From Acidipropionibacterium acidipropionici (lineage in GTDB: Bacteria > Actinomycetota > Actinomycetes > Propionibacteriales > Propionibacteriaceae): a DNA stretch of 64,000 bases. This document shows positions 20,700 through 48,800 of the stretch, in pieces. The notes under the pieces were generated by a model. The model made no database searches. It saw nothing but the letters and a program-made list of their open reading frames with translations, and was not told where the DNA came from. The stretch's first letter is position 1. Every line of letters begins with the position of its first letter. The stretch is from positions 310,001-374,000 of the forward strand of contig NZ_CP013126.1 of assembly GCF_001441165.1 (NCBI RefSeq), in the 5' to 3' direction. The translations under genes and the position numbers were made by a program.

Positions 20700-23294
20700 G
20701 TGCGACTGGCCGAGGCACTGGACGACATGCTGGACGCCCGCCCGCCCGTCGAGACCGACCGGGGCGAGCGGCCCGCCGGATGGGACTCCCCCGGAGCCCG
20801 GCCGATCGACCCCGACATGGCCCTGGATCACATCGAGCGGGCAGTGTCGCGCGACGGGCTGACGATGTACGACCACCAGGAGGAGGCGATCCTGGAGATC
20901 CTCACCGGATCCCACGTCATCGTCACCACCCCCACCGGATCGGGCAAATCCCTCATCGCTGCCGCCGCCCACTTCGCATGCGTCGCAGGAGGCGGCCGCT
21001 CCTACTACACCGCCCCCATCAAGGCGCTGGTCAGCGAGAAGTTCTTCGACCTGTGCGCGATCTTCGGGGCCGCCCGGGTCGGCATGGTCACAGGCGACGC
21101 CTCGGTGAACGCCGACGCCCCGATCATCTGCTGCACCGCGGAGATCCTGGCCAATATCGCGCTGCGCGAGGGCCGCCACGCCGCCGTCGACCAGGTGGTC
21201 ATGGACGAGTTCCACTTCATCGGCGACCCCGACCGCGGCTGGGCCTGGCAGGTCCCACTCTCCGAACTCCCCCAGGCCCAGCAGATCATCATGAGCGCCA
21301 CCCTCGGCGACGTCTCCCAGCTGGCTGAGGACCTCACCGCCGGGACGGGCAGGCCCACCACCGTCATCACCGGGGTCACCCGTCCCGTGCCGCTGCTCTA
21401 CGAGTGGTCGATGGAGTCCGATCACGACACCGTCGAACAGCTCGTCGAGGAGCAGAAGGCGCCGGTCTACATCGTCCATCCCTCTCAGAAGGCGGCCCTG
21501 GAGAGGGCGCAGTCACTCACCTCGATGAAGCTTGTGAGCACCGAGGAACGCCACGGGATCGCCGCCGAGATCGCCGACTTCCGCTTCTCCAAGGGGTTCG
21601 GCTCCACGGTGCGCAAATTCATCACCTCGGGCATTGGGGTCCACCACGCCGGGATGCTGCCCAAATACCGGCGGCTGGTGGAGACCCTGGCCCAGCAGGG
21701 CCGGCTCAAGGTGATCTGCGGCACCGACACCCTGGGTGTGGGGATCAACGTCCCGATCCGCACCGTGATGTTCATCGCCCTCACCAAATTCGACGGCCGC
21801 CGGATGCGGGTGCTGAAATCCCGCGAGTTCCACCAGATCGCGGGGCGGGCCGGGCGTGCCGGCTTCGACTCCGTCGGCTACGTCGTCGCCGAGGCCCCCG
21901 AGCACGTCGTCGCCAATGCCAAGGCCGCCGCCAAGGCGGGGGACGACCCGAAGAAGCAGCGCAGGATCAAGAAGCAGAAGGCGCCGGAGGGGTTCATCAA
22001 CTTCGACGAGGAGACTTTCAAGAAGCTCATCGCCTCGACCCCCGAGACCCTGCATGCGCGGATGCGGATCACCGACGCGATGCTGCTCAACCTGCTCTCG
22101 CGCGACGAGGACACCGTGGCCGCCGTCAAGCACCTGGTCGACGCTGCCACCTCCAGCGCCGCGGAGCGCAAGCGCCTCTACCGCCGCGCCATCCAGCTGG
22201 GCCGCGCCCTGCTGCACTCCGGCGTCGTCCACCGTCTCGACGAGCCCACCCCGGGAGGCCGCCGCTACGCCATGAACGAGGACCTCCAGGAGGACTTCGC
22301 CCTCAACCAGCCGCTGAGCGCCTTCGCCGCCGAGGCCATCGAGACCCTCGACCCGGACTCGGCCACCCACGCCCTGGACGTCGTCTCGGTGATCGAGGCC
22401 ACCCTCGACAACCCCATGACCCTCCTCTACGCCCAGCAGCGGCTGGCCCGCGGCGAGGCGATCGGGGAGCTGAAGGCCGAGGGCTACGACTACGAGGACC
22501 GGATGGCCGCCGTCGAGGACGTCGAGTGGCCCCGGCCGCTCGGCGAGACCCTCGACGCCCTCTTCGAGATCTTCGCCCCCTCCCATCCGTGGGTGCCGGC
22601 CGACGCCCTGTCCCCCAAGTCGATCGTCCGCGACATGTACGAGCGGGCCATGACCTTCGGCGAGTTCTGCGCCTTCTACAAGGTGCAGCGCTCCGAGGGC
22701 CTTGTGCTGCGCTACCTCACCGACGCCTACCGGGCGCTGCGCCAGACCGTCCCGGAAGCCGAGCGCACCGAGGAACTCAGCGACCTCATCTCCTGGCTGG
22801 GCGAGGTGATCCGCACCACCGACTCCTCCCTCATCGACGAGTGGGAGGCCCTCACCCACCCCGAGGAGTCCGACGAGCCCGAGGAGGTGCGCCCGGTGCA
22901 CACCTTCACCTCCAACCAGCGGGCCTTCCGGGTGGCGCTGCGCAACGCCATGTTCCGCAAGGTGATCCTGGCCGCCGACGACGACTTCGAGGGTCTGGCC
23001 GCCCTGGAGCCCGACGGGTCGCCGATGAAGGCCCGGGACTGGGAGGACGCGCTGGGCTCATACTGGGACGAGCACGAGGAGATCAACGACGGGCCCGACG
23101 CCCGCTCCCCAGCCATGCTGGTGATCGAGAACGAGTTCGGACGCCGGGACTCCCGGATCAGGCTGGTGCGCCAGATCATCGACGACCCCGAGGGCAACCA
23201 CGACTGGTCCATCACCGCCACCGTCGATCTGGACGAGTGCGACGAGGCCGACGACCTGATCCTGCGAACCCGGGCGTTCTCAAGATTGGACTGA
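20700..23294 (+). CDS. DEAD/DEAH-box helicase with DUF3516 C-terminal region
   Basis: An 864-residue superfamily 2 helicase. Motif I is TTPTGSGKSL (about residues 80-89), Ia region YYTAPIKALVSEKF, motif II VVMDEFHFI (DEFH), motif III MSATLGD, motif V GTDTLGVGINVPIRTV and motif VI FHQIAGRAGRAG. The organisation is Ski2/HelY-like, but the long C-terminal half (from about residue 420) matches the actinobacterial DUF3516 group. The GTG start follows GAGGAGA. Substrate and pathway are not known; related helicases act in RNA turnover or DNA repair. It stands alone, with dispersed repeats directly downstream. Confidence 0.9.
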   Translation: MRLAEALDDMLDARPPVETDRGERPAGWDSPGARPIDPDMALDHIERAVSRDGLTMYDHQEEAILEILTGSHVIVTTPTGSGKSLIAAAAHFACVAGGGRSYYTAPIKALVSEKFFDLCAIFGAARVGMVTGDASVNADAPIICCTAEILANIALREGRHAAVDQVVMDEFHFIGDPDRGWAWQVPLSELPQAQQIIMSATLGDVSQLAEDLTAGTGRPTTVITGVTRPVPLLYEWSMESDHDTVEQLVEEQKAPVYIVHPSQKAALERAQSLTSMKLVSTEERHGIAAEIADFRFSKGFGSTVRKFITSGIGVHHAGMLPKYRRLVETLAQQGRLKVICGTDTLGVGINVPIRTVMFIALTKFDGRRMRVLKSREFHQIAGRAGRAGFDSVGYVVAEAPEHVVANAKAAAKAGDDPKKQRRIKKQKAPEGFINFDEETFKKLIASTPETLHARMRITDAMLLNLLSRDEDTVAAVKHLVDAATSSAAERKRLYRRAIQLGRALLHSGVVHRLDEPTPGGRRYAMNEDLQEDFALNQPLSAFAAEAIETLDPDSATHALDVVSVIEATLDNPMTLLYAQQRLARGEAIGELKAEGYDYEDRMAAVEDVEWPRPLGETLDALFEIFAPSHPWVPADALSPKSIVRDMYERAMTFGEFCAFYKVQRSEGLVLRYLTDAYRALRQTVPEAERTEELSDLISWLGEVIRTTDSSLIDEWEALTHPEESDEPEEVRPVHTFTSNQRAFRVALRNAMFRKVILAADDDFEGLAALEPDGSPMKARDWEDALGSYWDEHEEINDGPDARSPAMLVIENEFGRRDSRIRLVRQIIDDPEGNHDWSITATVDLDECDEADDLILRTRAFSRLD

Positions 23295-23447
23295 GCTAAG
23301 GGGACGACCCCTTCGAAACCCCGTAGCGGCGGCTCGGCAACACATCCGGTCCGCGTCGCAGGCCTCTACCTCACAATCTCCCGGGGACGACCCCTTCGAA
23401 ACCCCGTAGCGGCGGCTCGGCAACACATCCGGTCCGCGTCGCAGGCC
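23293..23447. repeat. Two direct copies of a 65-bp dispersed repeat
   Basis: Identical units at 23300-23364 and 23383-23447 begin with the palindromic GGGGACGACCCC and end in GCGTCGCAGGCC. The first 32 bp, starting with GAGCTAA at 23293, recur exactly at 43623. They fill the 166-bp gap between the helicase and the LigT-like gene. Confidence 0.88.
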
Positions 23448-23460
23448 ATACGATCGCCTT

Positions 23461-23985
23461 GTGTCCCTCTCGGTCTGCCTGCTCTTCGATCGGCGGACCG
23501 ACCGTGCGCTGAGGGGTCTGTGGGGCCGGCTCGAGTCGATCGGCGTCTCCACCCTGCTCACCCACACCCACGAGAAACACCTTCCGCACTTGTCATACGC
23601 GGTGCTGCGGAACTGGGAGATCGACCGGGTGGTCGAGGCCGTGGCGTCCCTGCCCGCCGGAGACCCCATCCCCCTGCACTTCGACACGGTGGGGCACTTC
23701 CACCGCGGCCGAGCGGCCCTCATCGCCGCACCCCGCGCCGACCTCCTCGCCCGCCAGCAACGGGTGGTGGATGCCCTGACGAGCACCGGCGCCGACCTGC
23801 ACCACTACTACCTGCCGGGCCGATGGGTGCCCCACACCAGCCTGGCCACCCACGTCAAGGCGGCCCAGCTGGCGGCGATGACCTCCCTGGCCCACGACGT
23901 CCTCCCCCTGGACGCCACCGCGGTCGGCGCTTCGATCATCGACTCGGGAACCGGACTTCGCCACGACCTGGCGATGATCCCCTGA
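23461..23985 (+). CDS. 2'-5' RNA ligase (LigT)-family protein
   Basis: A 174-residue member of the 2H phosphoesterase superfamily. The two HxT/S motifs appear as LPHLSYAVL (about residue 44) and VPHTSLATH (about residue 123), the expected catalytic pair. LigT-like proteins act on 2',5'-linked RNA or cyclic phosphodiesters; the substrate here is unknown. The GTG at 23461 lacks a ribosome site but is 6 nt after TACGAT (23449-23454), and that -10 hexamer overlaps the end of the upstream repeat unit region. Confidence 0.82.
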   Translation: MSLSVCLLFDRRTDRALRGLWGRLESIGVSTLLTHTHEKHLPHLSYAVLRNWEIDRVVEAVASLPAGDPIPLHFDTVGHFHRGRAALIAAPRADLLARQQRVVDALTSTGADLHHYYLPGRWVPHTSLATHVKAAQLAAMTSLAHDVLPLDATAVGASIIDSGTGLRHDLAMIP

Positions 23986-24038
23986 CTCCCGCTGCGAGCC
24001 GGTGCCTGCCTCCTGACCGGTGGCTGTGGCAACCGAGC

Positions 24039-24113
24039 TGCGATTCTCGACGAGACCGCGTCCCATTCGCGCGAATCCAGCGCCAGAACCCTCCGGTTCC
24101 GTCGAGAATCGCA
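24039..24113. repeat. Palindromic element, class D
   Basis: A 75-bp element with 13-bp perfect arms (TGCGATTCTCGAC with GTCGAGAATCGCA), inner pairing ACCG/CGGT, and a central ATTCGCGCGAAT palindrome. It lies between the LigT-like and PEBP genes. Only one copy was found in the window. Confidence 0.7.
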
Positions 24114-24178
24114 CCTATCTTCACCGACCCCGCACCGGGTGGGCATGATGGGAGGACTCGTGGAAAGGATGATCCATC

Positions 24179-27947: not shown

Positions 27948-28162
27948 CATGTCTCGTCGAGCCCACGTTGTCGCCGCCCACATGTGTTTTGCTCAATCCT
28001 CAAACCCTCAAGTCTCACGTGAGGTTTAGGGTTATATCTCCTTGTCAACGCGGGATTGATAGGAGACTGCTGAGTTCTCTCAGAGTTCGCCGTAACATCA
28101 GCAGCGCCATTATCCAGTACTAGGTCGTGGCCGATCTGCCGCGGCGAACAGAAAGGACGACA
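27948..28162 (+). promoter_or_regulatory. AT-richer leader of the CHAP hydrolase gene
   Basis: This 215-bp stretch is clearly less GC-rich than its surroundings. It holds palindrome CTCACGTGAG flanked by AACCCT and AGGGTT arms, a TTGTCA hexamer and a TACTAG hexamer. Leaders of actinobacterial wall hydrolases often carry c-di-AMP (ydaO) riboswitches, but I could not recognise that aptamer here. It probably contains the promoter and an operator; details are unresolved. Confidence 0.4.
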
Positions 28163-29785
28163 ATGCGTCTTCCCCGCAGCAGTCAGCCATTGTCGCATCG
28201 CCTTCGCCGAGCCATCGGTGGTTCCGTGGTGCTCGCCCTGGTCGCCGGTGCCGCAGCCACCAGCACCGCGAGAGCCGAAACCCTCGACGAGAAGCAGCAG
28301 CGCCTCGAACAGGCACTGCAGACCTCCAAGGCCTCCCTGCAGAACAGCAAGGACGAGGCCGCCAGCACCCAGGACGACCTCACCACCTCCCAGACCCGGC
28401 TCTCCCGCCAGCAGCAGCTGCTCAGCCAGGCCACCGCCGACGTCACAGCGGCCAAGGCCCAGGATCAGCTGCTGGGCACCCGGCTGAAGAGCGCCCAGAC
28501 CGCGCTGGCGAAGGCCGACAAGGACGTCGCCGACGGGAAGGCCCGGCTGGACAAGGAGCGCAAGCGGTACACGACGTCGATGAACCGGCTCGTCCAGCAG
28601 TCCAGCCCGCTCCAGGGCCTCGCGCTCATCACCACCAACACCGACGCCGCCACCATGGCCCAGCGCGCCCAGTGGTCGCGGGTCGCGGTGAACGTGAGCC
28701 ACGACCAGGTCGACAAGGTCTCCCACCTGGTGACCACCCTCCAGACAGCGCAGAAGACGCAGGCCGCCGCCACCAAGCAGGCCGCCGAGCGCAAGAAGGA
28801 GTCGGCCGACCACCTGCGCACCACCACGAGCATCGAGTCGGAGGCCTCGGACGCCGCCGACGCCGTCGCCGCGACCGTCGCCCTCAACACCGCAGCCGCC
28901 GAGAACGCCAAGGCGCAGCTCGAGGCCGATCAGAACGCCACCGCGACCATCCAGGGGCAGATCGACACCACCGTCAAGCAGATCGCACAGGCCAAGGCCG
29001 AGGCCGAACGCAAGGCCGCCGAGGAGCGCGCCGCCAAGATCGCCGCCGCCAAAGCCAAGGCCGCGGCCGAACGCAAGGCCGCCCAGGAACGCGCCGCCAA
29101 GGCCGCCGCCGCCCAGAAGGCCGCCGCGGCACGGGCCGCCAAACTCGAGGCCCAGAAGGCAGCCCAGGAGAAGGCCCGGCAGGCCGCCGCGAAGCGCACC
29201 GCGGCCCAGAAGTCCGCCGCCAAGGCCGCCGCCGCGAGGGCCGCGGCCAAGGAGAGGGCGGCCAGGCAGAAGGCCAAGGCCGCCTCCAACCGGGCCGCGA
29301 AGGCCGCAGCAGCGGCCGAGCGCCGCAAGAACACCTCGAGCTCGAAGAAGTCGAGCTCCAGCGCCAAGAGGTCGTCGTACACCGCCGGCTCCTACTCCGC
29401 GGTCGCCAACTACAACGGCGTCGACCCGTGGGGCTTCTACTGGGGCCAGTGCGTGTCCTACGCCGCCTGGAAGGTCCGCACCACGACCTCCTGGTCGAAT
29501 TTCCAGAACTACACCAACGGGGTGCATTTCGGGAACGCCGTGAACTGGGGGTACGCCGCCCGCCAGATCGGCGTGCGCGTCGACACCCACCCGTCGGTCG
29601 GGTCGGTCGCCTGGCGCACCAGCGGATCGGCTGGCCACGTCGCCTGGGTCACCGCGGTGCACAGCGACGGGACGATCGACGTCTCCGAGTACAACTACCT
29701 GGTGTCCAGCGGATTCGACACCCGCAGTCACGTGGACTGGAGCGCCGGAGGATCCCAGGGGTTCGTGGGCTTCATCCACTTCTGA
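28163..29785 (+). CDS. Secreted CHAP-domain peptidoglycan hydrolase with coiled coil
   Basis: A 540-residue exported protein. The signal peptide (GGSVVLALVAGAAATSTARA) is followed by a long coiled coil (about residues 35-270), then about 130 residues almost entirely of Lys, Ala, Glu, Arg and Gln in short repeats, a Ser/Lys linker, and a C-terminal CHAP amidase/endopeptidase domain with Cys430 in YWGQCVSYAAWK and His492 in SAGHVAWV. The layout recalls PcsB- and RipA-type division hydrolases, in which the coiled coil restrains the enzyme; regulation by FtsEX here is only inference. Start ATG 28163 follows GAAAGGA. Confidence 0.9.
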   Translation: MRLPRSSQPLSHRLRRAIGGSVVLALVAGAAATSTARAETLDEKQQRLEQALQTSKASLQNSKDEAASTQDDLTTSQTRLSRQQQLLSQATADVTAAKAQDQLLGTRLKSAQTALAKADKDVADGKARLDKERKRYTTSMNRLVQQSSPLQGLALITTNTDAATMAQRAQWSRVAVNVSHDQVDKVSHLVTTLQTAQKTQAAATKQAAERKKESADHLRTTTSIESEASDAADAVAATVALNTAAAENAKAQLEADQNATATIQGQIDTTVKQIAQAKAEAERKAAEERAAKIAAAKAKAAAERKAAQERAAKAAAAQKAAAARAAKLEAQKAAQEKARQAAAKRTAAQKSAAKAAAARAAAKERAARQKAKAASNRAAKAAAAAERRKNTSSSKKSSSSAKRSSYTAGSYSAVANYNGVDPWGFYWGQCVSYAAWKVRTTTSWSNFQNYTNGVHFGNAVNWGYAARQIGVRVDTHPSVGSVAWRTSGSAGHVAWVTAVHSDGTIDVSEYNYLVSSGFDTRSHVDWSAGGSQGFVGFIHF

Positions 29786-29789
29786 TTGA

Positions 29790-29935
29790 GGCAGGGGGAC
29801 GACCCCCTTGCATCCCCCGAATCGGGGGCTCAGCCTCCCGCAGGTAGGCGTCGCTGGCCACCCGCAGCGGGTCGAGTCAGTGACCGGGTTCGACAGCAAA
29901 GGGTCAGGTCTGTTACCGGGTTCGGCCACGGACCT
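29790..29935. repeat. Dispersed repeat member after the CHAP gene
   Basis: It begins with GGGGGACGACCCCC, followed by a CCCCCG/CGGGGG hairpin, and continues with CCACCCGCAGCGGGT and the related pair GTCAGTGACCGGGTTCG and GGTCTGTTACCGGGTTCGG. These blocks align with the tails of the repeats at 43623 and 17678. Confidence 0.6.
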
Positions 29936-29944
29936 TGTGGGGTG

Positions 29945-30014
29945 GCTTTGCGCCCCGTCATCCTGCGTTGGCCCTCTAGCAACGGGCGAAAGGCAGCATG
30001 ACGGGACGCAAAGC
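29945..30014. repeat. Palindromic element, class B copy 2
   Basis: A 17-bp stem with one mismatch (29945-29961 with 29998-30014) encloses the core CGTTGGCCCTCT also present in copy 1 at 11041-11113. Arm bases differ from copy 1 in a paired manner (CCCC/GGGA against TCTC/GAGA), which preserves the stem. It lies in the 298-bp gap between the CHAP gene and the converging crcB operon. Confidence 0.75.
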
Positions 30015-30083
30015 AAGCTCACAGGGCACGGAATCCGCCAATGCGAGGACCGGAACCCCGAATGGCGATGGCGACCTCCGGCG

Positions 30084-30443
30084 TCACCCCAGAAGCATTC
30101 CGAGGGCGGCAGCCGCAGTTCCCAGCACGAGCATCCCGCCCGCGTGGAGAAGACCGGCACGGGCCCGGCCCGACAGGAAGAGCCGCGCCCCCTCGACCGA
30201 CGCGGTGCTGAAGGTGGAGTAGCCGCCGCAGAACCCGGTACCGATGACCGACGTCCATGACGCCGTCATCGTGTGATCGAGCCCCAGCCCGGTCGCCAGA
30301 CCGAGGATGAAGCACGCCGTGACGTTGATGACGATCGTCCCCATCGGCGTGTTGAGGCGGTTGTGCCGGGCGATCCAGGAGTCCACCAGGAACCGGGTCG
30401 CCGCCCCCGCTCCCCCGGCCAGGGATACGAACAGCCAGGTCAT
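30084..30443 (-). CDS. crcB: Fluoride channel CrcB/Fluc, second subunit
   Basis: A 119-residue, four-helix membrane protein that exports fluoride. The hallmark GFCGGYSTFSTAS (the phenylalanine-box helix) is present, with GGAGAATRFLVDSW near the N-terminus and INVTACFILGL containing the conserved Asn. Start ATG 30443 overlaps the upstream crcB by 4 bp. Gram-positive bacteria frequently have two adjacent crcB genes whose products form a heterodimer; the pair here fits that pattern. Confidence 0.93.
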   Translation of the reverse strand: MTWLFVSLAGGAGAATRFLVDSWIARHNRLNTPMGTIVINVTACFILGLATGLGLDHTMTASWTSVIGTGFCGGYSTFSTASVEGARLFLSGRARAGLLHAGGMLVLGTAAAALGMLLG

Positions 30444-31467: not shown

Positions 31468-31510
31468 GCGACATCCACCTTCCGCGGGCACGATGCACCC
31501 GCCTCAACAG

Positions 31511-31550: not shown

Positions 31551-31554
31551 TCCA

Positions 31555-33056: not shown

Positions 33057-33058
33057 CC

Positions 33059-36895: not shown

Positions 36896-36902
36896 CGGCC
36901 CG

Positions 36903-38668: not shown

Positions 38669-38754
38669 CGATCTGCGATGTTGACGGCCGTACTCGTGCA
38701 ACGCGTGACCATGTGTTCACGGGTGGCTGACACGACGTCTTGCCTCATGTCAAG

Positions 38755-40093
38755 ATGTCCGGATGAGCGCAGCGCTTGCCTCAGCTGAAATGTCCGGATG
38801 GAGATGAGTCAGGCGGCGGGTTGGTCGGTCTGGGTGCGACGTTCGGCTAGGCGGATGAGCTGGTTCTGGATGTCGGTGATCCGCCGGGCCAGATCGGCGG
38901 GGTTGAGCCTGTCGTGCTCGGCTGCCAGGCGGGCCCGTGTGGCGGGGTCCAGGACACCGGAGTCGACCAGCCGCTGGTAAGGGGTCTTGGGCTTGTCGTA
39001 GACCCGCTTCTTGCGCCCCGCGGAGGTGGTGGTCCAGCCGATGGCCTTGACGCAGGGCAGTAGGTGGTTCTTGCGGGCCATCACCAGGGGCCACAACTGG
39101 TTGAGCAGCTGAAGCTCGGTTGCGGTCTCGTAGCGGTATCTGAAGGCGTGGCGGCGGACCCAGTCGCCGTTGCGCTGCTCGACGTGGGCGTTGTCGTTCT
39201 TCTTGTAGGGCCGCGAGCGGGACATCGCGATGTCGTGGCCCTTCGCCCAGTCGATGAGGCCCCAGTTGATGAACTCCGACCCGTTGTCGACGTGGACCTC
39301 CGCCACGGGCACGGGCATCTGGTCGACGATCCGGTCCATGCCGGCCCCGATGTGGACGAATGCCTTGTTCTTGACCGTGGTCAGGACCGTGTAGCCGGAG
39401 ACGGGCAGGGTGGCCGACAAGGTCCACAGGAATTCCCCGACCAGGGTGTGGCCGCAGTGGGCCACGGTGTCGACCTCTACCAGCCCGGGATCGGTGATCG
39501 GCCCGTCCAGGCTGGTGCGCAGCGGCACCGCGGCACGCAGGATGTGAGGGGCGGGTCGGGTGGCTGACAGGCCGGCGGCCGGGTAGGCGGCGTCCTTGAA
39601 GGGTTTCAGGTACCTGTCGATGGTGGCCGCCGACATGGAGCGCAGTTCGGTCAGCACCGCGGGGGTGGCCCGGCGGGTGACTTTCCCGAACTCCTTGAAG
39701 CGTTCCAGCCTGTTCAGGGTGTCGTCCATCACGGGGGCCAGGTACTTCCCGGAGGGCTGACCCGTCACGCTCCACACGTGCTGGAGGACCTTCACGGCGT
39801 CGTAGGAGTACTTGCGGGGCCGGGGCCGGCGCTTCTGCTGGGACGCGGCACCTTTCCGCGTCAGGGCTGCCCGGATCGCGCGGCGGGCGTGGTCACGGGT
39901 CCAGCCTGTGGTGGCGGTCAGGGAGTCCAGCAGCACCGACTTGTCCTTCTTCGATGCGGCCCGGTACTGGTGGGCGTACTTCTTGGTGATCTCACGGCGT
40001 GCGGCCATCGACAGCTCCCGATCCATGGCCCGGGCCTACACCGTCAGTACGCGGACATCCTCATCTGAGGCACGTGCTGCCGCATCCGGACCT
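38755..40093 (-). mobile_element. Insertion sequence, about 1.34 kb
   Basis: The element encodes one DDE transposase. Both ends carry related inverted repeats of about 45 bp (38755-38799 and 40048-40092) sharing GTCCGGATG at the tip, TGCCTCAG in the middle and an inner ATGTCCG. The left end therefore holds two TGTCCGGATG copies (38756, 38791), a two-site transposase-binding layout. No clear target-site duplication was seen. Its right tip is about 25 bp from the -35 box of the 6C RNA gene. Confidence 0.85.
38809..40026 (-). CDS. Transposase with integrase (rve) catalytic core
   Basis: A 405-residue transposase. After an N-terminal helix-turn-helix region (TATTGWTRDHARRAIRAAL) and a basic linker, the retroviral-integrase-type core shows Asp in VEVDTVAHCG, Asp in VHVDNGSEF and Glu in DNAHVEQRN, the DDE triad. 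The spacing and intact frame suggest an active or recently active element. IS family assignment (IS481-like or related) is not certain. ATG 40026 is used; the second in-frame ATG (MAARRE) is six codons later. Confidence 0.93.
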   Translation of the reverse strand: MDRELSMAARREITKKYAHQYRAASKKDKSVLLDSLTATTGWTRDHARRAIRAALTRKGAASQQKRRPRPRKYSYDAVKVLQHVWSVTGQPSGKYLAPVMDDTLNRLERFKEFGKVTRRATPAVLTELRSMSAATIDRYLKPFKDAAYPAAGLSATRPAPHILRAAVPLRTSLDGPITDPGLVEVDTVAHCGHTLVGEFLWTLSATLPVSGYTVLTTVKNKAFVHIGAGMDRIVDQMPVPVAEVHVDNGSEFINWGLIDWAKGHDIAMSRSRPYKKNDNAHVEQRNGDWVRRHAFRYRYETATELQLLNQLWPLVMARKNHLLPCVKAIGWTTTSAGRKKRVYDKPKTPYQRLVDSGVLDPATRARLAAEHDRLNPADLARRITDIQNQLIRLAERRTQTDQPAA

Positions 40094-40116
40094 TTTACGT
40101 GAGTCTCGTCGCACGA

Positions 40117-40146
40117 TTGACCCGTCAAACATCGACCGTCTACTCT
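40117..40146 (+). promoter_or_regulatory. Promoter of the 6C RNA
   Basis: TTGACC (40117-40122) and TACTCT (40141-40146) are separated by 18 bp, close to the sigma-A consensus. Transcription would start near 40153. It is the best -35/-10 pair in the window. Confidence 0.8.
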
Positions 40147-40152
40147 AGGAGT

Positions 40153-40266
40153 CACCGCGGGAACTCCCCCCAGATCCCGCGAAGGGCCCGATATGCCACC
40201 CCCTCCCCCGGCGGTGGCGGGCCGCGGGAGGCTCGGTCTTCGGACCGAGCCTCCCGCTTCTTCTTT
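40153..40266 (+). ncRNA. 6C small RNA
   Basis: Two hairpins with cytosine-rich loops define the actinobacterial 6C RNA: GCGGGA/TCCCGC around a loop with six consecutive C (40166-40171), and GCCACC/GGTGGC (40195-40218) around CCCTCCCCC. They are followed by a 15-bp terminator stem with a TTCG loop (40224-40257) and a T-rich tail. 6C RNAs are implicated in growth and stress control in mycobacteria and streptomycetes by base pairing through the C-rich loops. The gene lies between the IS and murJ, which is on the other strand. Confidence 0.92.
40224..40266 (+). terminator. Rho-independent terminator of 6C RNA
   Basis: A perfect 15-bp stem with a TTCG tetraloop is followed by TTCTTCTTT. The stem can also stop murJ transcripts arriving from the other strand. 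Confidence 0.92.
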
Positions 40267-40279
40267 CCCCGACATCCTG

Positions 40280-42220
40280 CTACTTGACGACGTGGAGCTT
40301 TCGCAGGATCGGGGTGACGAGGCTGGCGACCTCCTCGATCTTCAGCAGCTTCGCCACCAGGAGGAACAGGCCGACGAAGAGGCATCCCCCGACGGCCAGG
40401 TTCAGCAGATTCAGCAGGCGTCCTTCACCCAGCAGCCCGATCGCCCAGACCGCGACGCCGGTCGGCACCCCGGCAGCAACGGCAGCGGCCAGCAGACGCA
40501 GCCACTGCCTGGCGATCGACCGCATTCCCAGGCCGTTCATCTGACGCGACGCCACCACGATCCACACCACCGACACGGCGATGTTCGCGAGGGTCTGGGC
40601 CGCGGCCACCGTCCACAGAGCGATGGATGCCGGGACGACGAACACCAGACTCGCCACCAGAAGCTGTGTTCCCGACAGGATGGACTGCATGATGAGGTTC
40701 TGGCGGCCGTCCTCCCGGGCGAAGCAGTAGCGCTGCTGAAGGGTGGAGATACCGAAGGGAAGCAGGCCGATCCCCATGATCGCCACGGCTCCGGCCTGCG
40801 GAATGACCTGCTCGGGTTGCAGACTCAGAATCGTCTGGACGCCGGGACGGGCCAGCACCACCATGGCGATGGAGCACGGGATGATGGCGACCGCGGGCGA
40901 GGTCAGGCCTCTGCGCACCAGGGAGCGTAGCCCGTCGGTGTCGCCGTCGGCGTGGGCAGAACTCATCCTCGGGAACAGGGCGGTGAGGATCGACACGGTG
41001 ATGAGCCCGTGGGGCAGCATGAAGATGAGGAAGGCGTTGTCGTAGGCGCTGATCGAGGACGCCTGCGGATTGTGCACCCGCACCCAGGAGAGCATCTTCT
41101 TGGTGGCGATGCCCACCATCTGCGCAATGAGCAGGGCCGAAAAGGTCCACATGGTCAGCCGTCCGGCCGCCCCCAGCCCGTACCCGCGGATCCCCCACCG
41201 CGGCCTCCAGCGGAACCCTCCGCGCCACAGCGGGATGATGAGGGACAGGCCCTGGACGGCGATGCCCAGCGTGGTCGTCCCGGCCACCACCCACACCATC
41301 GGGGAGCTCCAGCCAGCGGGGTCGCCGTGGCGGCCGAACTGCGCCACGCACCACACCAGGCCGCTGATCTGGATGACGTTGGCCAGCACCGGACTCCACA
41401 TGAAGGCGGCGAACTGCCCCCTCGCGTTGAGCACCTGTCCGAGGATGGCGTAGACCCCGTAGAACAGGATCTGCGGCATGCAGATGAACCCGAACATGAC
41501 GGCGAGCGTGCGTGCCGGGCCGGTTCCCGAGAACGAGAGATTGAGGAGCCACGGCGTGCCCACCGTCGCCAGGACGGCGACGAGGACCACTGCCGCGAAG
41601 GAGACCGTCAACAGCCGGTCGACGAACTCCCGCCCGCCGTCCTTACGTTTCATCGCCTTGACGATCTGCGGGATGAGGATGGCGTTCAGGACGCCGGCCG
41701 AGAGCAGGTTGAAGATGACATTGGGCAGCGTGTTGGCGGCCTGGAAGGTGTCATAGGCCAGTCCGGTGCCGAGCATGACGAAGCTGAGCAGGAATCCGCG
41801 AATCAACCCCAGGATCTTGGAGATGAGCGTCCCGGCGGCCATGATCGAGCTCTCCCGCTTGAGCGACGCCGTCTGCTCGGCCTCGCTCTTGGCGGCCTCT
41901 CCCGGCAGGGTGCCGGCGGCGATCTCGGTGCCGTCTGCAGCTACTGGTGTCCCGACAGCCGGAAGACCCATCCCTGTCGTGGCTGAATCCGGGGAGGCGG
42001 CCCGCCTCGGACCGCGGGCAGCCTCGCGCCGCATCCGGGCCCGGCGCTCCTGGTCCTCGGCCCTCTCGATGGCATGGATGCGCGCCACCAGATCCGAGCG
42101 CAGCATCGTGGCGTCGACGTCCAGAGAGTCGTAGACATCGAAGAATCCGGTGGGGCTGCGGGGCCCCTCGGGCACCTTCAGCAGGTCGTAGACGTCGGTC
42201 TCGGCGAACGACGACCCCAC
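40280..42220 (-). CDS. murJ: Lipid II flippase MurJ (MviN)
   Basis: An integral membrane protein moving lipid II across the membrane for peptidoglycan synthesis. From about residue 122 it has 14 predicted helices, starting RESSIMAAGTLISKILGLIRGFLL with the conserved Ser-Arg-Gly pattern, then YDTFQAANTLPNVIFNLLSAGVLNA, and LPHGLITVSILTALFPRMS. The first ~120 residues are a hydrophilic, charged cytoplasmic extension not present in E. coli MurJ. The GTG at 42220 follows AAGGG; 646 residues. Unlike the mycobacterial protein there is no C-terminal pseudokinase. Confidence 0.93.
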   Translation of the reverse strand: MGSSFAETDVYDLLKVPEGPRSPTGFFDVYDSLDVDATMLRSDLVARIHAIERAEDQERRARMRREAARGPRRAASPDSATTGMGLPAVGTPVAADGTEIAAGTLPGEAAKSEAEQTASLKRESSIMAAGTLISKILGLIRGFLLSFVMLGTGLAYDTFQAANTLPNVIFNLLSAGVLNAILIPQIVKAMKRKDGGREFVDRLLTVSFAAVVLVAVLATVGTPWLLNLSFSGTGPARTLAVMFGFICMPQILFYGVYAILGQVLNARGQFAAFMWSPVLANVIQISGLVWCVAQFGRHGDPAGWSSPMVWVVAGTTTLGIAVQGLSLIIPLWRGGFRWRPRWGIRGYGLGAAGRLTMWTFSALLIAQMVGIATKKMLSWVRVHNPQASSISAYDNAFLIFMLPHGLITVSILTALFPRMSSAHADGDTDGLRSLVRRGLTSPAVAIIPCSIAMVVLARPGVQTILSLQPEQVIPQAGAVAIMGIGLLPFGISTLQQRYCFAREDGRQNLIMQSILSGTQLLVASLVFVVPASIALWTVAAAQTLANIAVSVVWIVVASRQMNGLGMRSIARQWLRLLAAAVAAGVPTGVAVWAIGLLGEGRLLNLLNLAVGGCLFVGLFLLVAKLLKIEEVASLVTPILRKLHVVK

Positions 42221-42297
42221 CCCTTGCGGACCGTCATTGGTCCTGCGGGGTGCCCGATCGTCGTCGGGCAGGCCGGAGCCCGCCCTTCTGCGCGGAG

Positions 42298-43572
42298 TCA
42301 GCGTCCTGTCCCCGCGTAGACGACGGCCTCACCCTCGGAGTCCAGCCCGAAGGCGGTGTGGGCCACCCGCACCGCCTGGTCGACCTGGTCGGCGGCGACC
42401 ACGACCGAGATGCGGATCTCAGAGGTGGAGATCATCTGAAGGTTGATCCCCGCGCCGGCCAGTGCGTTGAAATAGGTGGAGGTGACGCCGGGGTGGGAGC
42501 GCATCCCGACCCCGATCACCGACACCTTGCCGACCTGGTCGTCGTAGAGCAGCTGCTCGAATCCGATCGACTCCTGGGCGTTGTTGAGGGCCTCGACAGC
42601 GGTGCGCCCGTCGGACATCGGCAGGGTGAAGGAGAGGTCGGTGCGGCCGTTCATCACCCGCGACGCGTTCTGGACGATCATGTCGATGTTGATGTCGGCG
42701 TCCGCGATGATCTGGAAGATCTGCGCGGCCCGGCCCACGGCGTCCGGAATGCCGGCGATGGTGATCTTCGCCTCCGAGCGGTCGTGGGCGACTCCGGAGA
42801 TGATGGCCTCTTCCACAGCTGATCCCTTCGTGATGTCTGCCAGGTCCCGGACCCAGGTGCCCGGCTTGTCGGAGAAGGAGGACCGGACGTGGACGGGCAC
42901 GTCCTCGCGGCGCGCGTACTCGACGCACCGCAGGTGCAGGATCTTGGCGCCGCAGGCGGCCATCTCCAGCATCTCCTCGTAACTGATCTCGGGTATCCGC
43001 CGTGCTCCGGGCACGATCCGCGGATCGGCGGTGAAGACGCCGTCGACGTCGGAGTAGATCTCGCAGTACTCGGCACCCAGTGCGCTCGCCAGCGCGACGG
43101 CGGTGGTGTCGGAGGCGCCTCGGCCCAGGGTGGTGACGTCCTTGGTGGTCTGCGAGACCCCCTGGAAGCCGCACACGATGACCACATTGCCGGCGTCCAG
43201 GGACTTCTCGACCCGGCCGGGGGTGATGTCGATGATGCGGGCGTTGCCGTGGGCGGCGGTGGTGATGACGCCGGCCTGCGATCCGGTGTAGCTGCGGGCC
43301 GGCACGCCCAGATCCGACAGGGCCATCGCCAGCAGGGAGGCCGACTGCCGCTCGCCGGTGGTCAGCAGCATGTCGAGCTCCCGGGGAGCGGGCTGCGGAG
43401 ACACCTGGAGGGCCAGGTCCATGAGGTCGTCGGTGGAGTCGCCCATCGCCGAGATGACGATCACGACCTCATTCCCGGCCTGCCTGGTGGCGGCGATCCT
43501 CTTGGCCACCCGCTTGATGGAGCCGGCATCGGCCACCGAGGACCCACCGAACTTCTGGACGACGCGCGTCAT
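42298..43572 (-). CDS. lysC: Aspartate kinase
   Basis: Phosphorylates L-aspartate, first step of the lysine/threonine/methionine pathway and of diaminopimelate for the wall. The 424-residue protein has the kinase signature [53 protein letters not shown], and two ACT regulatory domains at the C-terminus ([20 protein letters not shown] and [19 protein letters not shown]). An internal start for a separate beta subunit is possible, as in corynebacteria. ATG 43572 follows GGGAGGG. The usual partner asd is not in the window. Confidence 0.95.
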
Positions 43573-43622
43573 CAACCCTCCCGTGAATGCGGACACTGCA
43601 GTCTATCCAGCTGCTCTGCGCG

Positions 43623-43700
43623 GAGCTAAGGGGACGACCCCTTCGAAACCCCGTGGCGACGGCTCTGAACTACTCAGAACAGCGTCGCAGGCCTCCCGCT
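43623..43700. repeat. Dispersed repeat copy upstream of aspartate kinase
   Basis: The first 32 bp are identical to 23293-23324, including GGGGACGACCCC; the middle diverges (CTGAACTACTCAGAACAG) and the end regains GCGTCGCAGGCCT and CCGCTGCGGGTT. It lies in the divergent gap between aspartate kinase and the DUF1707 gene. Confidence 0.82.
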
Positions 43701-43766
43701 GCGGGTTCAGACAGTGTCCGCGTTCAGAGACAGGGGTCTGGACCGGACCGTCCTACCCTGTTCGTC

Positions 43767-44258
43767 ATGGACCCCAGTGAGCAGCGCATCGGCGACGCGG
43801 AGCGGGACGCCGCGGTGGAGGCGCTGCGCGACCACCATGTCGCCGGACGGCTGACCCCCGAGGAGTTCGACGAACGGATGAGCGCTGCGCTGGCGGCACG
43901 CACCCGCGGGGACCTCGAACCGCTCTTCGCCGACCTTCCCGACGATCGGCCGGCACGGGCGAGCCTGGCGAAGGCCCCGACGGCCAAGGAGGTCGCTCCC
44001 GCCGACGGGGGGAATCGCTACCACCGGGTGGTCGAGGTGCTCAGCGCGATCGCCTGGCCGGCGGCCCTCATCATCAACTTCGCCACCGGATGGCAGTGGT
44101 GGTGGATCATCTTCATCCCGATATTCCTGGTCCCGGCGCTGGTCGGCGAGGACCGCGGCCACCGGGCGCGGCAGCGTCGGCAGATGCGCGAGGACCGGCG
44201 CCGCCAGATCGGGACCGGAGGCGAGGGCGACCAGGACGACGATCCCCCAAGCCGCTAG
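43767..44258 (+). CDS. DUF1707 protein with two membrane helices
   Basis: A 163-residue protein. Residues 4-60 are a DUF1707 domain (RIGDAERDAAVEALRDHHVAGRLTPEEFDERM), followed by a short linker and a pair of helices (VLSAIAWPAALIINFATG, WWWIIFIPIFLVPALVG) and an Arg/Asp-rich tail. It is related to the protein at 5425 only in the first domain. Function unknown. The ATG lies 7 nt after TACCCT (43754-43759), leaderless. Confidence 0.85.
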   Translation: MDPSEQRIGDAERDAAVEALRDHHVAGRLTPEEFDERMSAALAARTRGDLEPLFADLPDDRPARASLAKAPTAKEVAPADGGNRYHRVVEVLSAIAWPAALIINFATGWQWWWIIFIPIFLVPALVGEDRGHRARQRRQMREDRRRQIGTGGEGDQDDDPPSR

Positions 44259-44361
44259 TCGCACCGCGAACCGCGGCTGTCGGCGTCGTCCCTGAATATC
44301 GCATCGACGAGTTCCCTCGTCTGCCGGACGCACGGCGCGCGGCGCGCCTACAGTTTTCCCC

Positions 44362-45381
44362 ATGGACACGATCGGATGGGGTATCGCGGGCACCGGGCGG
44401 ATCGCTCGCACCGTCCTGCCCGATTTCGCCCATGTCCCGGAGGCGCGAGTGGCCGCCGTGGCGTCCCGCACACAGGAGCACGCCGACTCTCTGGTCGGCC
44501 TGGCGGAGTCCACCCTGCCCGGCCAGCCGCGGCCGAAGGCCTACTCCTCCTACGCCCGGATGATGGAGGACCCCGACGTCGACGCCGTCTACGTCGCCAC
44601 TCCCCATCCCCAGCACAAGCCGATCGCGCTGGCGGCCCTGGCCGCCGGAAAGGCCGTCCTGGTGGAGAAGTCCTTCGCCGCCACCTACGCCGGCGCAGGA
44701 CAGATCGTCGCTGCGGCCAGGGACCGGGGCCTGTTCGCCATGGAGGGCATCTGGAGCCGGTTCCTGCCGGTGATCCGCGAGATGGATCTGGCGGTGGAGG
44801 CCGGGGAGATCGGCGAGGTGACGTCGGTCCAGGGAGATCTCTTCGCGCTGCGGGACTTCGACCCTGAGGACCGCCTCTTCAACCCCCAGCTCGGCGGCGG
44901 CGCCACCCTAGATCTCGGCGTCTACGCCATCAACTTCGCCGTAGGCCACCTGGGCTGCCCCATCCGGGTGACGGCGTCGGGCAGCCTGTTCCCCAACGGC
45001 GTCGACTCCGACGTGGCCATGCTGTTGGAGCACCGCGGGCAGCGCACCGCCACCCTGGCGGTGTCCCTGCGGGCCGACGGGCCCGGGCGCATGACCATCA
45101 ACGGCACCAATGGCTGGATCGAGGTGGAGCCGCGGTTCCACCACCCGAGCCGGATCGTGGTTCACCGCCGCGGCGTCATCCCGCAGGTCCATGAGGCCCC
45201 GCAGATGGGCCGCGGATACGCCCACGAGTTCATCGAGGTGGGCCGATGCCTCAGAGAAGGGCTCACCGAGAGCGCCATCATGCCGCTGGACGACACCCTG
45301 GCGGTGTCGAAGGTAATGCAATCAGCACTTGAACAGGTGGGGGTCACCCACCACGACGACGAGGAACTACCACATGGTTGA
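44362..45381 (+). CDS. Gfo/Idh/MocA-family oxidoreductase
   Basis: A 339-residue NAD(P)-dependent dehydrogenase. The N-terminal Rossmann fold begins GWGIAGTGRIARTVLPDF; AVYVATPHPQHKPIALAALAAGKAVLVEKSFAA carries the conserved EK(S/P) motif; the C-terminal alpha/beta domain includes GGGATLDLGVYAINFAVGHLG with the catalytic-region Asp and Tyr. Likely substrate is a sugar or inositol derivative, not identifiable. The ATG lies 7 nt after TACAGT (44349-44354). Its end overlaps the GNAT gene by 8 bp. Confidence 0.9.
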   Translation: MDTIGWGIAGTGRIARTVLPDFAHVPEARVAAVASRTQEHADSLVGLAESTLPGQPRPKAYSSYARMMEDPDVDAVYVATPHPQHKPIALAALAAGKAVLVEKSFAATYAGAGQIVAAARDRGLFAMEGIWSRFLPVIREMDLAVEAGEIGEVTSVQGDLFALRDFDPEDRLFNPQLGGGATLDLGVYAINFAVGHLGCPIRVTASGSLFPNGVDSDVAMLLEHRGQRTATLAVSLRADGPGRMTINGTNGWIEVEPRFHHPSRIVVHRRGVIPQVHEAPQMGRGYAHEFIEVGRCLREGLTESAIMPLDDTLAVSKVMQSALEQVGVTHHDDEELPHG

Positions 45382-45691
45382 CCTCCACCACGATCTGAAG
45401 GTCCGGTGGAATCGCTCGGCGACGGCCGTCAACGGCGACCGCACGGGCGAGTTCGTGCTCACAGTGGCCGATTCTGAGGCCGCCGGAATCGCCCTGGAAC
45501 AGGTCGAGCCCGGGGTCGTGAAACTGCCGGCCGCCTATGTGCACCCCCGGTTCGGATCGGGAATGCGCTCGGCACTGGTCAAGGCCACCCTGGACCTGCT
45601 GCGCGACGACGGTTACCGGGTGATCCCGGTCTCGCCCTATGTGACGTCCTGGATCCAGGACCATCCCGGCTACGCCGACCTGGTGAAGTAG
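45374..45691 (+). CDS. Small GNAT-type N-acetyltransferase (YjdJ-like)
   Basis: A 105-residue protein of the short Gcn5-related group (PF14542 type), ending in the conserved HPRFGSGMRSALVKATLDLLRDDG and PVSPYVTSWIQDHPGYADLV; the arginine/glycine loop is the CoA-binding part. It overlaps the dehydrogenase gene by 8 bp and must be co-transcribed. Substrate unknown. Confidence 0.88.
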   Translation: MVDLHHDLKVRWNRSATAVNGDRTGEFVLTVADSEAAGIALEQVEPGVVKLPAAYVHPRFGSGMRSALVKATLDLLRDDGYRVIPVSPYVTSWIQDHPGYADLVK

Positions 45692-45750
45692 CGCGGAGAA
45701 GTAGCTCCCCGCCATAGCGCGGTGAAATAGCTCCGGACGCCGGGAGTTTT

Positions 45751-45808
45751 TACTCCCTACACACCGTCCCGGAGCCCCTGCGGGCGCCGGGACGGCGTGT
45801 TGGGAGTA
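45751..45808. terminator. Bidirectional terminator between GNAT gene and ileS
   Basis: A long stem: TACTCCC/GGGAGTA outside, then ACAC-CCGTCCCGG against CCGGGACGG-GTGT with one mismatch, and GCCC/GGGC at the tip. A third GGGAGT at 45742 can form an alternative short hairpin with ACTCCC around TTTT. Confidence 0.85.
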
Positions 45809-45818
45809 GATTCCTCGC

Positions 45819-48800
45819 TCAGGCCTTGACGACGCTGATCGACAGGCCGAGATCGGGCTCGGTGGCCCAGGCGTCGTCGGGAGTTCCCTCCCCCATCGAC
45901 GTGGCCAGCACCTCGTCGGCGATCTCACCGGCGTGATCGCGGATCGCCTCGGCCAGGTCGCCGTCGGCGTGCCAGGTCAGAGAGATCCGGTCGGAGACCT
46001 CCAGACCGACGTGCTTGCGGGTGTCCTGGATGAACCGGACGGCCTCGCGGGCCAGGCCGGCGCGCGCCAGTTCGGGGGTGATCTCCAGATCCAGGGCGAC
46101 GGTCTCGCCCTGCTCGTTGACCACACTCCAGCCCTCGCGGGGCCGCTCGGAGATGATGACGTCGTCGGCGCCGATGGTGGCCTTCCCGCCCTCAGCCTCC
46201 GGGACGTCGAGGGTCACCTCGTGGCCCGCGGCCAGCTCAGTGGCCAGCATGGAGGCGTCGCAGGCCGCCACGGCGGCGGCGACCTTCGGCGTCGCCTTGC
46301 CGAAGCGCTTGCCCAGTGACCGGAAGTTCCCCTTGGCGGAGTGATCCACCAGGTCGCCCGAGGAGCCGAATGCCTCCAGGGCGCCGATGTTGAGCTCGGC
46401 GCGGATCTCGGCCTGCAGCGGCTCGTCCAGCTTGGCCAGAGCCGAACCGGCGATGAGGGCCCGGCTCAGCGGCTGGCGCACCTTCATCTTCGCCTCGGCG
46501 CGGGCGCCGCGTCCCAGCTCGACGACGCGGCGGGCCAGATCCATCGCGTGATCCAGATCCTCATCGATGACCGACTCGTCGGCGACCGGCCAGGAGGCCA
46601 GGTGCACCGACTCGGGTGCGTTCGGATCCGTGGGGACGAAGAGGTCCTGCCAGACCCGCTCGGTGATGAACGGAACCATCGGGGCCATCAGCCGGGTCAG
46701 CACGTTCAGCGTCTCGTGAAGGGTCCACAGGGCGCTGGGATCCCCGTCCCAGAAGCGGCGACGGGACCGGCGAACGTACCAGTTCGACAGCTCGTCGATG
46801 AACTCCTGGATGAGAGCGCCGGCGTGCTGGGTGTTGAAGTCGTTGAGCGAGGCGGTGACGTCACGGACAAGGACATTGGTCGCCGACGTCAGCCACCGGT
46901 CCAGGACGTGGCGATCCTCCAGAGCGGGGGGGACGACCCCCCCGAGCCCCCTCGGCGCACCAGTCTGCGCACAATCGCCTTCGCCCGCGGTGGCCGCTGC
47001 AGGGCTCCAGTCATTCGCCCGGGCGTAGAGAGCGTGGAAAGAGACGGTGTTCCAGTAGGTGAGCAGGATCTTGCGGACCGTCTCCTGGATCGTGTCATCG
47101 CCCACCCTTCGTGCGCTCCACGGGGAGCCGTCGGCGGCCATGAACCAGCGCACGGCGTCCGCCCCGTGCTTGTCCATCAGCGGGATGGGCAGCAGGATGT
47201 TGCCCAGATGCTTACTCATCTTGCGGCCGTCGGCCGCCAGGATGTGGCCCAGGCAGAGCACGTTCTTGTACGACGACTGGTCGAAGACCAGGGTGCCGAC
47301 CGCCATCAGCGTGTAGAACCAGCCGCGGGTCTGGTCGATGGCCTCGCAGATGAAGTCGGCCGGGTAGTGGGCCAGGAACTTCTCCTCAGAACCGGGCACG
47401 TGCGGGTAGCCCCACTGTGCGAAGGGCATCGAGCCCGAGTCCAGCCAGGCGTCGGCCACCTCGGGGACGCGGTGGTAGATGTGGCCGTTCCGCTCGAAGG
47501 TGATCTCGTCGATGAAGGGACGGTGCGGGTCCAGCCCGGACAGGTCGCGCCCGACGTACTGGGACAGCTCCTTGAGCGAGCCGACGCAGATGACGTCGTC
47601 GCGGTCGTCGTCATTGCGCCACAGCGGCAGCGGGGTGCCCCAGTACCGGGTGCGCGAGACCGCCCAGTCGATGTTATTCTCCAGCCAGTCGCCGTAGCGG
47701 CCGTGCTTGATGGTCTCGGGGTACCAGGTGGTGGCCTCGTTCTGGGCCAGCAGCTGATCCTTGATCTGCGTGGTGCGGATGTACCAGGAGGGCTGGGCGT
47801 AGTAGATGAGCGGGGTGTCGCAGCGCCAGCAGTGCGGGTAGGAGTGCCAGTGCATCTCCAGGCGCCACAGGATCCCGCGCTTCTCGAGGTCCTCGCACAG
47901 GGGCTTGTCGGCGGTCTTGAAGAAGACCCCTCCGACCATCGGGATGTCGGCCTCGAAGGTGCCGTCGGGACGCACCGGGTTGACCATCGGCAGCCCGTAG
48001 GCGCGGCAGGTCGCGAAGTCGTCGGCGCCGAAGGCAGGGGCCTGGTGCACCAGGCCGGTGCCGTCCTCGACGGTGACGTAGTCGGCGAGGATGACGAAGT
48101 TGGCGTCGGCCGGGGTTTCGCGACCGTCGAGGGTGCGGTGCTCGGTGGCCGGCCACTTCACCCAGTCGTAGGGGCGCTCGTAGGTCCAGAACTCCATCTC
48201 GGTGCCCTGGAAGGACTCGCCGGTGCGCGACCACTCCTCGCCCAGCACGGCGTCGAAGAGGGGCTCGGCGATGACCAGATCCTCCCCCGGATCGGCCTCG
48301 GCGGTCGTCTCGGAGTCGGCGTCGGTCTGGGGGGCCGGGTTGCGGTGGGCGACGACGTAGGTGACGTCGGGGTGGACGGCCACCGCGGTGTTGGAGACCA
48401 GGGTCCACGGGGTGGTGGTCCACACCAGCAGCTTCGCCCGACCGGCCAGCGGGCCCGAGGTGATCGGGAACTGCACGTAGATCGAGGGGTCGCGGTCGTC
48501 CTGGTAGCCCTGGGCGAGCTCGTGGTCGGACAGGGTGGTGCCGCAGCGCGGGCAGTAGGGGGCGACGCGGTAGTCCTCGCCGAGCAGGCCCTTGTTGAAG
48601 ACCTGCTTGAGGCCCCACCACACCGACTCGACGTACTGGGGGTGCATCGTCCAGTAGGCCTCGTCCATGTTGACCCAGTAGCCCATCCGCTCGGTGAGCT
48701 CGGAGAAGGCGTCGACGTGGCGGGTCACCGACTCGCGGCACTTGGCATTGAAGGGCTCGACGCCGTACTTCTCGATGTCGGGCTTGCCGGAGAATCCGAG

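Follow-up and report, generated by a model that had tools for sequence, protein, structure and literature searches.

What kind of element is a short palindrome that stands between genes at several places and, at one, forms part of an essential enzyme? This question is raised by a 64,000-nucleotide stretch of Acidipropionibacterium acidipropionici (G000:C1:310001-374000, below the window; the genome is a single contig of 3,651,382 bp), where one copy of a dispersed repeat lies inside ileS, the gene of isoleucyl-tRNA synthetase (IleRS). Our results make it probable that the copies belong to a lineage-specific family of hairpin repeats in Acidipropionibacterium, similar to repetitive extragenic palindromes (REPs) and mycobacterial interspersed repetitive units (MIRUs) and able to enter tolerant protein loops. 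Comparisons within the genus cover five genomes (G000 to G004), of which G001 is the sister species of G000.

All units have a common hairpin head with the 12-mer GGGGACGACCCC as its exact form. A sequence-only reading of the window would have been refuted by a repeat that is not multicopy genome-wide; the exact head occurs 50 times in the G000 genome compared to twice for its reversed control. Five exact copies lie in the window, with heads starting at 23300, 23383, 29795, 43630 and 46929; the same reading had placed the first two correctly, while its positions 29790 and 43627 for the next two need correction. Its observation that 23293-23324 and 43623-43654 are identical is borne out by sequence comparison, and the first 65 bp from the heads of alpha units 1 and 2 (23300-23364 and 23383-23447) are identical as well. 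If one mismatch is allowed, the window holds 9 matches to the head (shuffled mean 2.73), a number reached in none of 100 shuffles. Three of the 50 exact heads (L001, L025 and L055) are without the stem extension and the family flanks; they look like chance matches and were excluded, leaving 47.

Units are about 65-115 bp in size and fall into two sub-kinds, alpha and beta. Beta units run from TCAA or similar through the head to GCTCGC...GCTCGCTG, CCCCGAGCGGG and GGGTCTGCGACCGCG, and alpha units from GAGGCAG or GAGCTAA through the head to TTGCAACCC, CGTAGCGG, GCGTCGCNGGCC and CGCTGCGGG. The hairpin loop is usually ACGA, with ACAA also found. The beta alignments comprise 21 rows and the alpha alignments 19 and 15 rows (among them L033, which does not have the exact 12-mer), and several of the 47 heads are in neither alignment. 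Inner stem and loop are invariant in this first set because the copies were selected by the 12-mer. The outer stem changes in matched pairs (AU/GC, GC/AU and CG/GC/UA/AU among the 21 beta copies), with 94.0% of the cells of the beta head stem paired compared to 84.1 in shuffled alignments and 21 cells with a double change compared to 7.4, values that 0 of 500 shuffles matched in either case. Among 60 units not selected by the 12-mer, paired changes of the inner stem (GGAGGAG/CTCCTCC, GGCGG/CCGCC) and other loops are visible by eye. Judging from these alignments, the head appears to be a hairpin whose stem stays paired through compensatory changes.

Units are most commonly found right after a stop codon, with the head leading and in the sense of the gene. 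Distances to the stop codon were counted from where the model begins, some 8 nt ahead of the head. Our first set comprised 85 G000 units hand-picked among the matches listed; 82 intergenic units were evaluated after two without a locus and one inside a gene had been set aside. Their upstream gene is co-directional in 56 cases, with the unit beginning no more than 10 nt from the stop codon in 47 of these, and divergent in 26. In 18 of the 56 the start overlaps the stop codon, which the unit itself may then provide; excluding these, 30 of 38 still start within 10 nt. A second set of 33 G000 and 27 G001 units, hand-picked among the remaining matches listed and counting L354 despite a head that is not family-like by eye, gave 20/25 and 18/20 by the same measure. 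Uniform placement would predict 10.8 such units (13.0 when free play is limited to 150 nt) compared to the 46 of 55 observed once the one row without a downstream gene is dropped, and the largest of 20,000 simulations reached 24. At the other unit and gene ends, the tail lies within 10 nt of a convergent stop in 2 of 38 cases and of a start codon in 0 of 42, and the head lies as close to a divergent start in 1 of 26. Similarly, 14 of 16 co-directional heads hand-chosen in other genomes stand within 14 nt of a stop; this set holds 24 loci with 25 heads, the others being 5 in a gene call, 3 divergent and 1 unplaced. Two of those five in-gene heads are coding units described below (L066 and L069) and the other three have weak scores. 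Gene calls contain one of the 116 placed G000 units (in the DEDD exonuclease gene, the ileS unit standing outside those lists) and none of the 27 G001 units of the second set.

The sense orientation and the stop-codon starts in all three sets, together with the compensatory stem changes, would also fit heads that serve as transcription terminators or regulators of the 3' untranslated region (UTR), kept by selection and copied by recombination, and thus functional rather than selfish; the same placement recurs at loci of Cutibacterium sp. and of Propionibacteriaceae UBA4569. We regard this as possible but not likely, considering that 26 of the 82 units have a divergent upstream gene, that units lie inside two protein genes and that four of the seven unit places of the G000 window are empty in G001. 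A terminator scan of 28000-46000 reported neither the 29795 nor the 43630 head, and an Rfam scan of 10000-64000 matched only tRNA. We accordingly rejected two established classes, the intrinsic terminator with a G+C-rich hairpin and a T run (that scan, with the other heads judged by eye) and the known Rfam RNAs (nothing at gathering score in the scanned range except tRNA).

G000 and G001 differ in the places that are occupied. In the syntenic stretch four are filled in G000 only (12857, 17678-17993, 23292-23469 and 29787), one in G001 only (stretch position 38803) and three in both (43622, ileS and 61456), with a tandem version at the 43622 place in G001. G001 lacks around 166 bp with two alpha units (23296-23461), its genes reading TGAGATG at that point, and at 29787 it shares the TGA and retains a short TGAGGCAGGGG similar to a unit start. 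By eye, the stops at 23292 and 29787 stand in G001 without a unit, and the gene at 17993 ends at the same place in G001 with a different stop codon; since the G001 genes end there without units, those of G000 lie behind pre-existing stops. It seems likely that such differences arose by insertion rather than by loss.

We counted units in 20 genomes with two covariance models, R1 for beta and R2 for alpha units, both trained without the ileS copy; the window copies at 23292, 29787 and 43622 belonged to the R2 training set. R1 matched at least 120, 45, 3, 8 and 2 units in G000 to G004, respectively, and R2 at least 100, 36, 2, 39 and 8, with some units matched by both, so that the counts overlap. 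These figures are lower bounds, and zeros are limited by sensitivity, because 150 candidates per genome were scored. Units are numerous in three of the five genus members, while the 15 genomes outside the genus (Cutibacterium not among them) gave one marginal beta match (E-value 0.005) and no alpha match. The exact head occurs 10, 5, 18 and 11 times in the other genomes of the genus. As a bare 12-mer it is present at least once in 32 of 37 genomes of the order (at most 13 copies outside the genus) and is therefore not diagnostic of the genus; whole units, unlike the bare 12-mer, appear peculiar to it at the search sensitivity used. In Cutibacterium sp. G038 (apparently one genome with G016, given identical ileS coordinates) and in UBA4569, similar heads followed by different tails are found after stop codons. 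In several tandem arrays, for example at 2035665, 2495772, 2278191, 2465004 and 1534128, the unit spacing is 63-105 bp. Seven copies of GGGGACGACCCC at an exact spacing of 161 bp in an 8.5-Mb genome of the same order (G035:C1:3145291-3146268) are perhaps an unrelated tandem array.

How does the copy inside ileS relate to this family? It lies in frame, as had been claimed, on the minus strand of the window at 46929-46982, and encodes a GAPRGLGGVVPP segment; its residues are 756-773 of the 1142-amino-acid open reading frame, the previously given range of about 714-743 fitting a later start codon. We measured the IleRS linker between the motifs FxALY and LDRW at 101 loci, 13 of which had no linker match. 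Among the remaining 88 it is 16-21 residues long in 80, 33 in 2 and 40-48 in 6, with 40 in G000; the set holds G003 twice (L087 and L174), and the pairs L086/L180, L090/L181 and L092/L186 have identical linkers and are perhaps the same genomes. The segment is thus absent from most relatives measured, as an insertion should be, and sequence comparison indicates that the ileS unit is a real in-frame insertion. It is present in G000, G001 and G003 and absent in G002 and G004. Of nine Cutibacterium genomes, four have two heads each, to which G043 adds a partial third, while head-like remnants are visible by eye in two and the remaining three are empty. Heads occur in the IleRS linker of 7 of 14 Acidipropionibacterium and Cutibacterium species, sometimes doubled and once inverted. 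The heads in C. modestum ileS carry the loop ACAA. R2 matched the ileS units of G000, G003 and G001 with E-values of 1.8e-4, 4.4e-4 and 3.8e-3 and the four Cutibacterium loci with heads with 5.5e-8 to 2.5e-4, compared to a best E-value of 0.08 among seven ileS loci without heads. On an IleRS tree computed with the linker removed, the presence of heads requires five changes, at least three of them on well-supported branches.

The insertion stands at the border between the catalytic core and the anticodon-binding domain, as delimited by Pfam domains, where the linker has 8 residues in the solved IleRS 8c8w. In an AlphaFold2 model built from 20 sequences, residues 754-770 have a predicted local distance difference test score below 50, as do six other segments (mean of the model 73.8), so the linker is predicted to be disordered.

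From head to tail mark the ileS unit measures 83 bp in G000, G001 and G003, and in G001 it is reversed. Local alignment of the G001 unit scores 72 inverted and 30 in the same sense against G000, and 64 and 31 against G003, with most of the inverted score coming from the common head. Tail similarity is evident for G000/G001 (4 of 2000 shuffles as good), weaker for G003/G001 (47) and lacking for G000/G003 (895). Given the opposite orientation, either the segment was flipped in G001, for which we considered recombination at its GCGGGGG/CCCCCGC repeats, or another unit entered in the other sense. The palindrome GGTGGCCACC alone is weak evidence of inversion, and the case rests on the local alignments instead.

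That the ileS repeats are a home-grown coding minisatellite, merely similar to the intergenic heads, seems improbable to us. Slippage does not yield inversion, yet the 83-bp unit is inverted in G001; R2 matches the ileS units over model positions 1-114 in G000 and Cutibacterium; G003 has an intergenic unit, 4 nt past a stop codon, that shares 78% identity with the G000 ileS unit (query 8-76); and a second gene contains beta units. A local origin would be in line with the doubling of units in ileS, with the exact head of C. modestum, which outside ileS does not stand in family-like sequence, and with the weak matches outside ileS that are all an ileS-unit query gives in G043, G046 and G049. The Cutibacterium ileS units may be either old ones whose source family was lost or home-grown.

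Two further observations concern this gene. The metagenome-assembled ileS of G003 (G003:C11:72407; L087/L174) is split into two frames at about residue 955, perhaps by an assembly error. A 47-residue IleRS linker with the repeat GTGGCGAGCGA and no GGGGAC head is found at about 3556-3711 of L200, from the Propionibacteriaceae metagenome-assembled genome Md513_bin121.

The second coding case is a beta unit at G000:C1:3320813-3320886, in gene sense within a 612-amino-acid open frame that encodes a protein with a DEDD exonuclease domain (NF005907 of NCBIfam at 754.7 bits; cut-off 454). Our comparison of this protein covered G000, G001, G002 and Nonomuraea. The G001 exonuclease is 81% identical and has two beta units there (R1 E-values 2.9e-18 and 8.8e-9; this copy was not in R1 training), together with the repeat DPSTLARARFLPEQVGTA. 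The G002 homologue (62% identical) shows a 21-residue gap at the unit place and no beta unit, and the Nonomuraea homologue is likewise without the segment. Across species, sequence comparison thus finds coding units doubled, decayed, absent or inverted, which suggests that protein function tolerates them. Openness of the reading frames was rejected as the reason for coding entry: frames are open in 35/48 cases in sense and 38/48 in antisense for alpha units (16 units including the ileS one) and in 51/63 and 56/63 for beta units, only slightly more than the 68% of random sequence.

Among known repeat systems, the sequence-only reading had likened the ileS copy to the protein-invading palindromic elements of Rickettsia. 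According to PMC10969869, reporting Ogata et al. 2000, Rickettsia palindromic elements (RPEs) are palindromic repeats that have entered genes in frame and added a peptide lacking in relatives; nearly half of the R. conorii RPEs lie in genes. This likeness holds up for the ileS and exonuclease units, which are in frame, absent in relatives and related to a dispersed family, the exonuclease providing a second case besides the one foreseen. It has limits in that the C. modestum ileS units have no visible dispersed source and most units lie outside genes, usually at a post-stop place that is REP-like or MIRU-like. Only one of the 116 placed G000 units plus the ileS unit are coding, two genes compared to more than 100 extragenic units, and this family is G+C-rich and actinobacterial.

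Like REPs as presented in excerpts of PMC12306157 and PMC3733652, the units are short, multicopy and mostly extragenic hairpins, a share of which lie within 15 nt behind a stop codon, with intragenic ones also occurring. They differ from REPs in having no terminal GTAG or CGTC tag and a loop that is usually ACGA; their arrays are direct tandems, not head-to-head pairs, and no link to REP-associated tyrosine transposases (RAYTs) was found. The CGTC type, described in the relevant part of PMC3733652 with a terminal CGTC tag and an 8-9 bp stem starting with AT pairs, was rejected since our units begin with TCAA, GAGG, GAGC and similar.

GTAG-kind REPs mobilised by a RAYT, an IS200-like Y1 transposase, are to our mind a very unlikely description of the family. 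G000 does have one Y1_Tnp gene (L122:1345-1875, plus strand), and GTAGCG occurs inside 8 of the 15 alpha units of alignment A4. There it is internal and not conserved, and no beta unit lies within about 1.5 kb of this sole Y1 gene (the R2 alpha model was not run there), so the assignment was rejected. Y1_Tnp transposases are expected to have an HxH motif; the gene as read seems to be without it and is perhaps decayed or repurposed.

MIRUs of Mycobacterium are intergenic tandem units of tens of bp at gene junctions, mostly in the sense of the upstream gene. By this description, the tandem spacing of 63-105 bp and the stop-codon placement resemble MIRUs, while the palindromic covarying head and the in-gene cases do not, and the unit differs in sense from 26/82 of the upstream and 40/82 of the downstream genes. 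Miniature inverted-repeat transposable elements (MITEs), according to an excerpt of PMC10969869, are likewise small, multicopy and variably present between species, but here no terminal inverted repeats or target duplications were seen and the palindrome stands at one end only; even the clean absence of 23296-23461 in G001 shows no clear duplication, with few sites compared. This comparison suggests that extragenic copies work like REPs or MIRUs and the ileS and exonuclease copies like RPEs. A literature search of titles and abstract openings found no description of these repeats or of the ileS insertion, nor does the family appear in the excerpt of PMC12306157 whose table of palindrome counts includes A. 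thoenii, and the excerpt of PMC3534718, the P. acidipropionici genome paper, mentions palindromic repeats as CRISPR only.

At the place where units are commonest, the mRNA would carry a stable hairpin only a few nucleotides from the terminating ribosome, where the 3' UTR begins. As reported in part of PMC12306157, ribosomes stall at E. coli REPs that lie within 15 nt of a stop codon, and by analogy the units would be likely to brake translation of the upstream gene mildly and to protect the 3' end, with many of them probably being near-neutral passengers. Occasionally, a unit that is free of stops in the frame used sits in a presumably tolerant inter-domain linker, alpha-like in IleRS and beta in the DEDD exonuclease. 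No transposase was found associated with the family, so mobilisation may occur in trans or by recombination between copies. A bolder version, which we hold to be quite improbable, would make the unit a mobile 3' UTR device that inserts in sense at stops by a mechanism reading gene ends and brakes the terminating ribosome, with protein linkers as a second landing place and the hairpin of the IleRS linker, a linker common to both genera, gained, doubled and inverted because it pauses translation between the domains.

Several points weigh against a mobile hairpin family that enters proteins. No movement of units was observed, none of the few sites compared has a clear target duplication, and unit loss is possible at 29787 because G001 keeps TGAGGCAGGGG. 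Heads show no clustering on the IleRS tree, where 202 of 500 shuffles gave as low a value, and none of the four C. modestum head copies outside ileS (three with the loop ACGA, one with ACAA) is family-like. Two of five covariation measures are not above shuffles, namely the pairs with a double change (381/500 as high) and further pair types (492/500), and the RNA folds of whole units do not surpass shuffles in five of six cases (z-scores near 0, and -2.27 in the other; five units, with the ileS unit on both strands). The post-stop effect is by analogy only, and genes were called with a home-made codon-usage script.

Nevertheless, we favor a hairpin family that enters tolerant loops as the probable explanation, which would make this a high-G+C case, outside Rickettsia, of palindromic repeats entering proteins. 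In ileS the host is the essential isoleucyl-tRNA synthetase, with units placed in flexible loops. Full, doubled, inverted, decayed and empty IleRS loops in 14 species and a parallel gene make the origin of a new protein segment traceable step by step. The head-first placement within about 10 nt of a stop makes a REP-like hairpin function testable in a bacterium of food fermentations. The units of the window are listed below with ileS; those at 12857-12990, 17678-17993 and 61456-61594 had been missed by the sequence-only reading.

Repeat units and ileS in the window (positions of the window; E-values of the models R1 and R2)
Feature	Position	Strand	Head	E-value	Remarks
Unit with degenerate beta head and alpha-like tail	12857..12990	+		R1 5.4e-9; R2 6e-8	
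Tandem array	17678..17993	-			units about 92 bp apart; head at stop codon
Alpha unit 1	23292..23372	+	23300-23311	R2 8.3e-13	directly behind TGA stop 23292-23294
Alpha unit 2	23375..23469	+	23383-23394	R2 2.2e-11	tandem, 83 bp on
Full-length alpha unit	29787..29899	+	29795-29806	R2 1.7e-22	behind TGA stop
Full-length alpha unit	43622..43733	+	43630-43641	R2 2.8e-22	
ileS, isoleucyl-tRNA synthetase	45819..49247	-			1142-amino-acid open reading frame; Pfam tRNA-synt_1, Anticodon_1, DUF5915; solved relatives
Alpha-like unit inside ileS	46920..47003	+ (antisense to gene)	46929-46940	R2 1.8e-4; R1 1.3e-4	
Weak candidate unit	60729..60791	+	GGGGATGACCCC	R1 0.025	
Two tandem beta units	61456..61594	+		R1 1.8e-14 and 9.2e-9	

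Other repeats were seen along the way. One family, found at 10951-11168 and about 29960-30060 of the window, consists of inverted repeats of about 90 bp whose arms are TTTGCTTTGCGTC / GACGCAAAGCAA and whose middle resembles GCGTTGGCCCTCTAGC; G001 cleanly lacks the 10951-11168 copy and has similar ones. Two related units CGACGAGTTCTGCCATAT...CACGTGGCAGA.CTC.TCG at 20466-20655 face a near-perfect empty site in G001. G001 also lacks a segment of about 150 bp (23985-24139) that follows a TGA directly and has inverted GATTCTCGACG arms, and some 1.38 kb at 38735-40112 of G000 are not in the syntenic G001 stretch. A near-perfect long palindrome, TTTTCAC.TCGGCAGCGG..TACCGCTGCCGA.GTGAAAA, is present at about 1690-1740 of L021 and at 60597-61065 of the G001 stretch.

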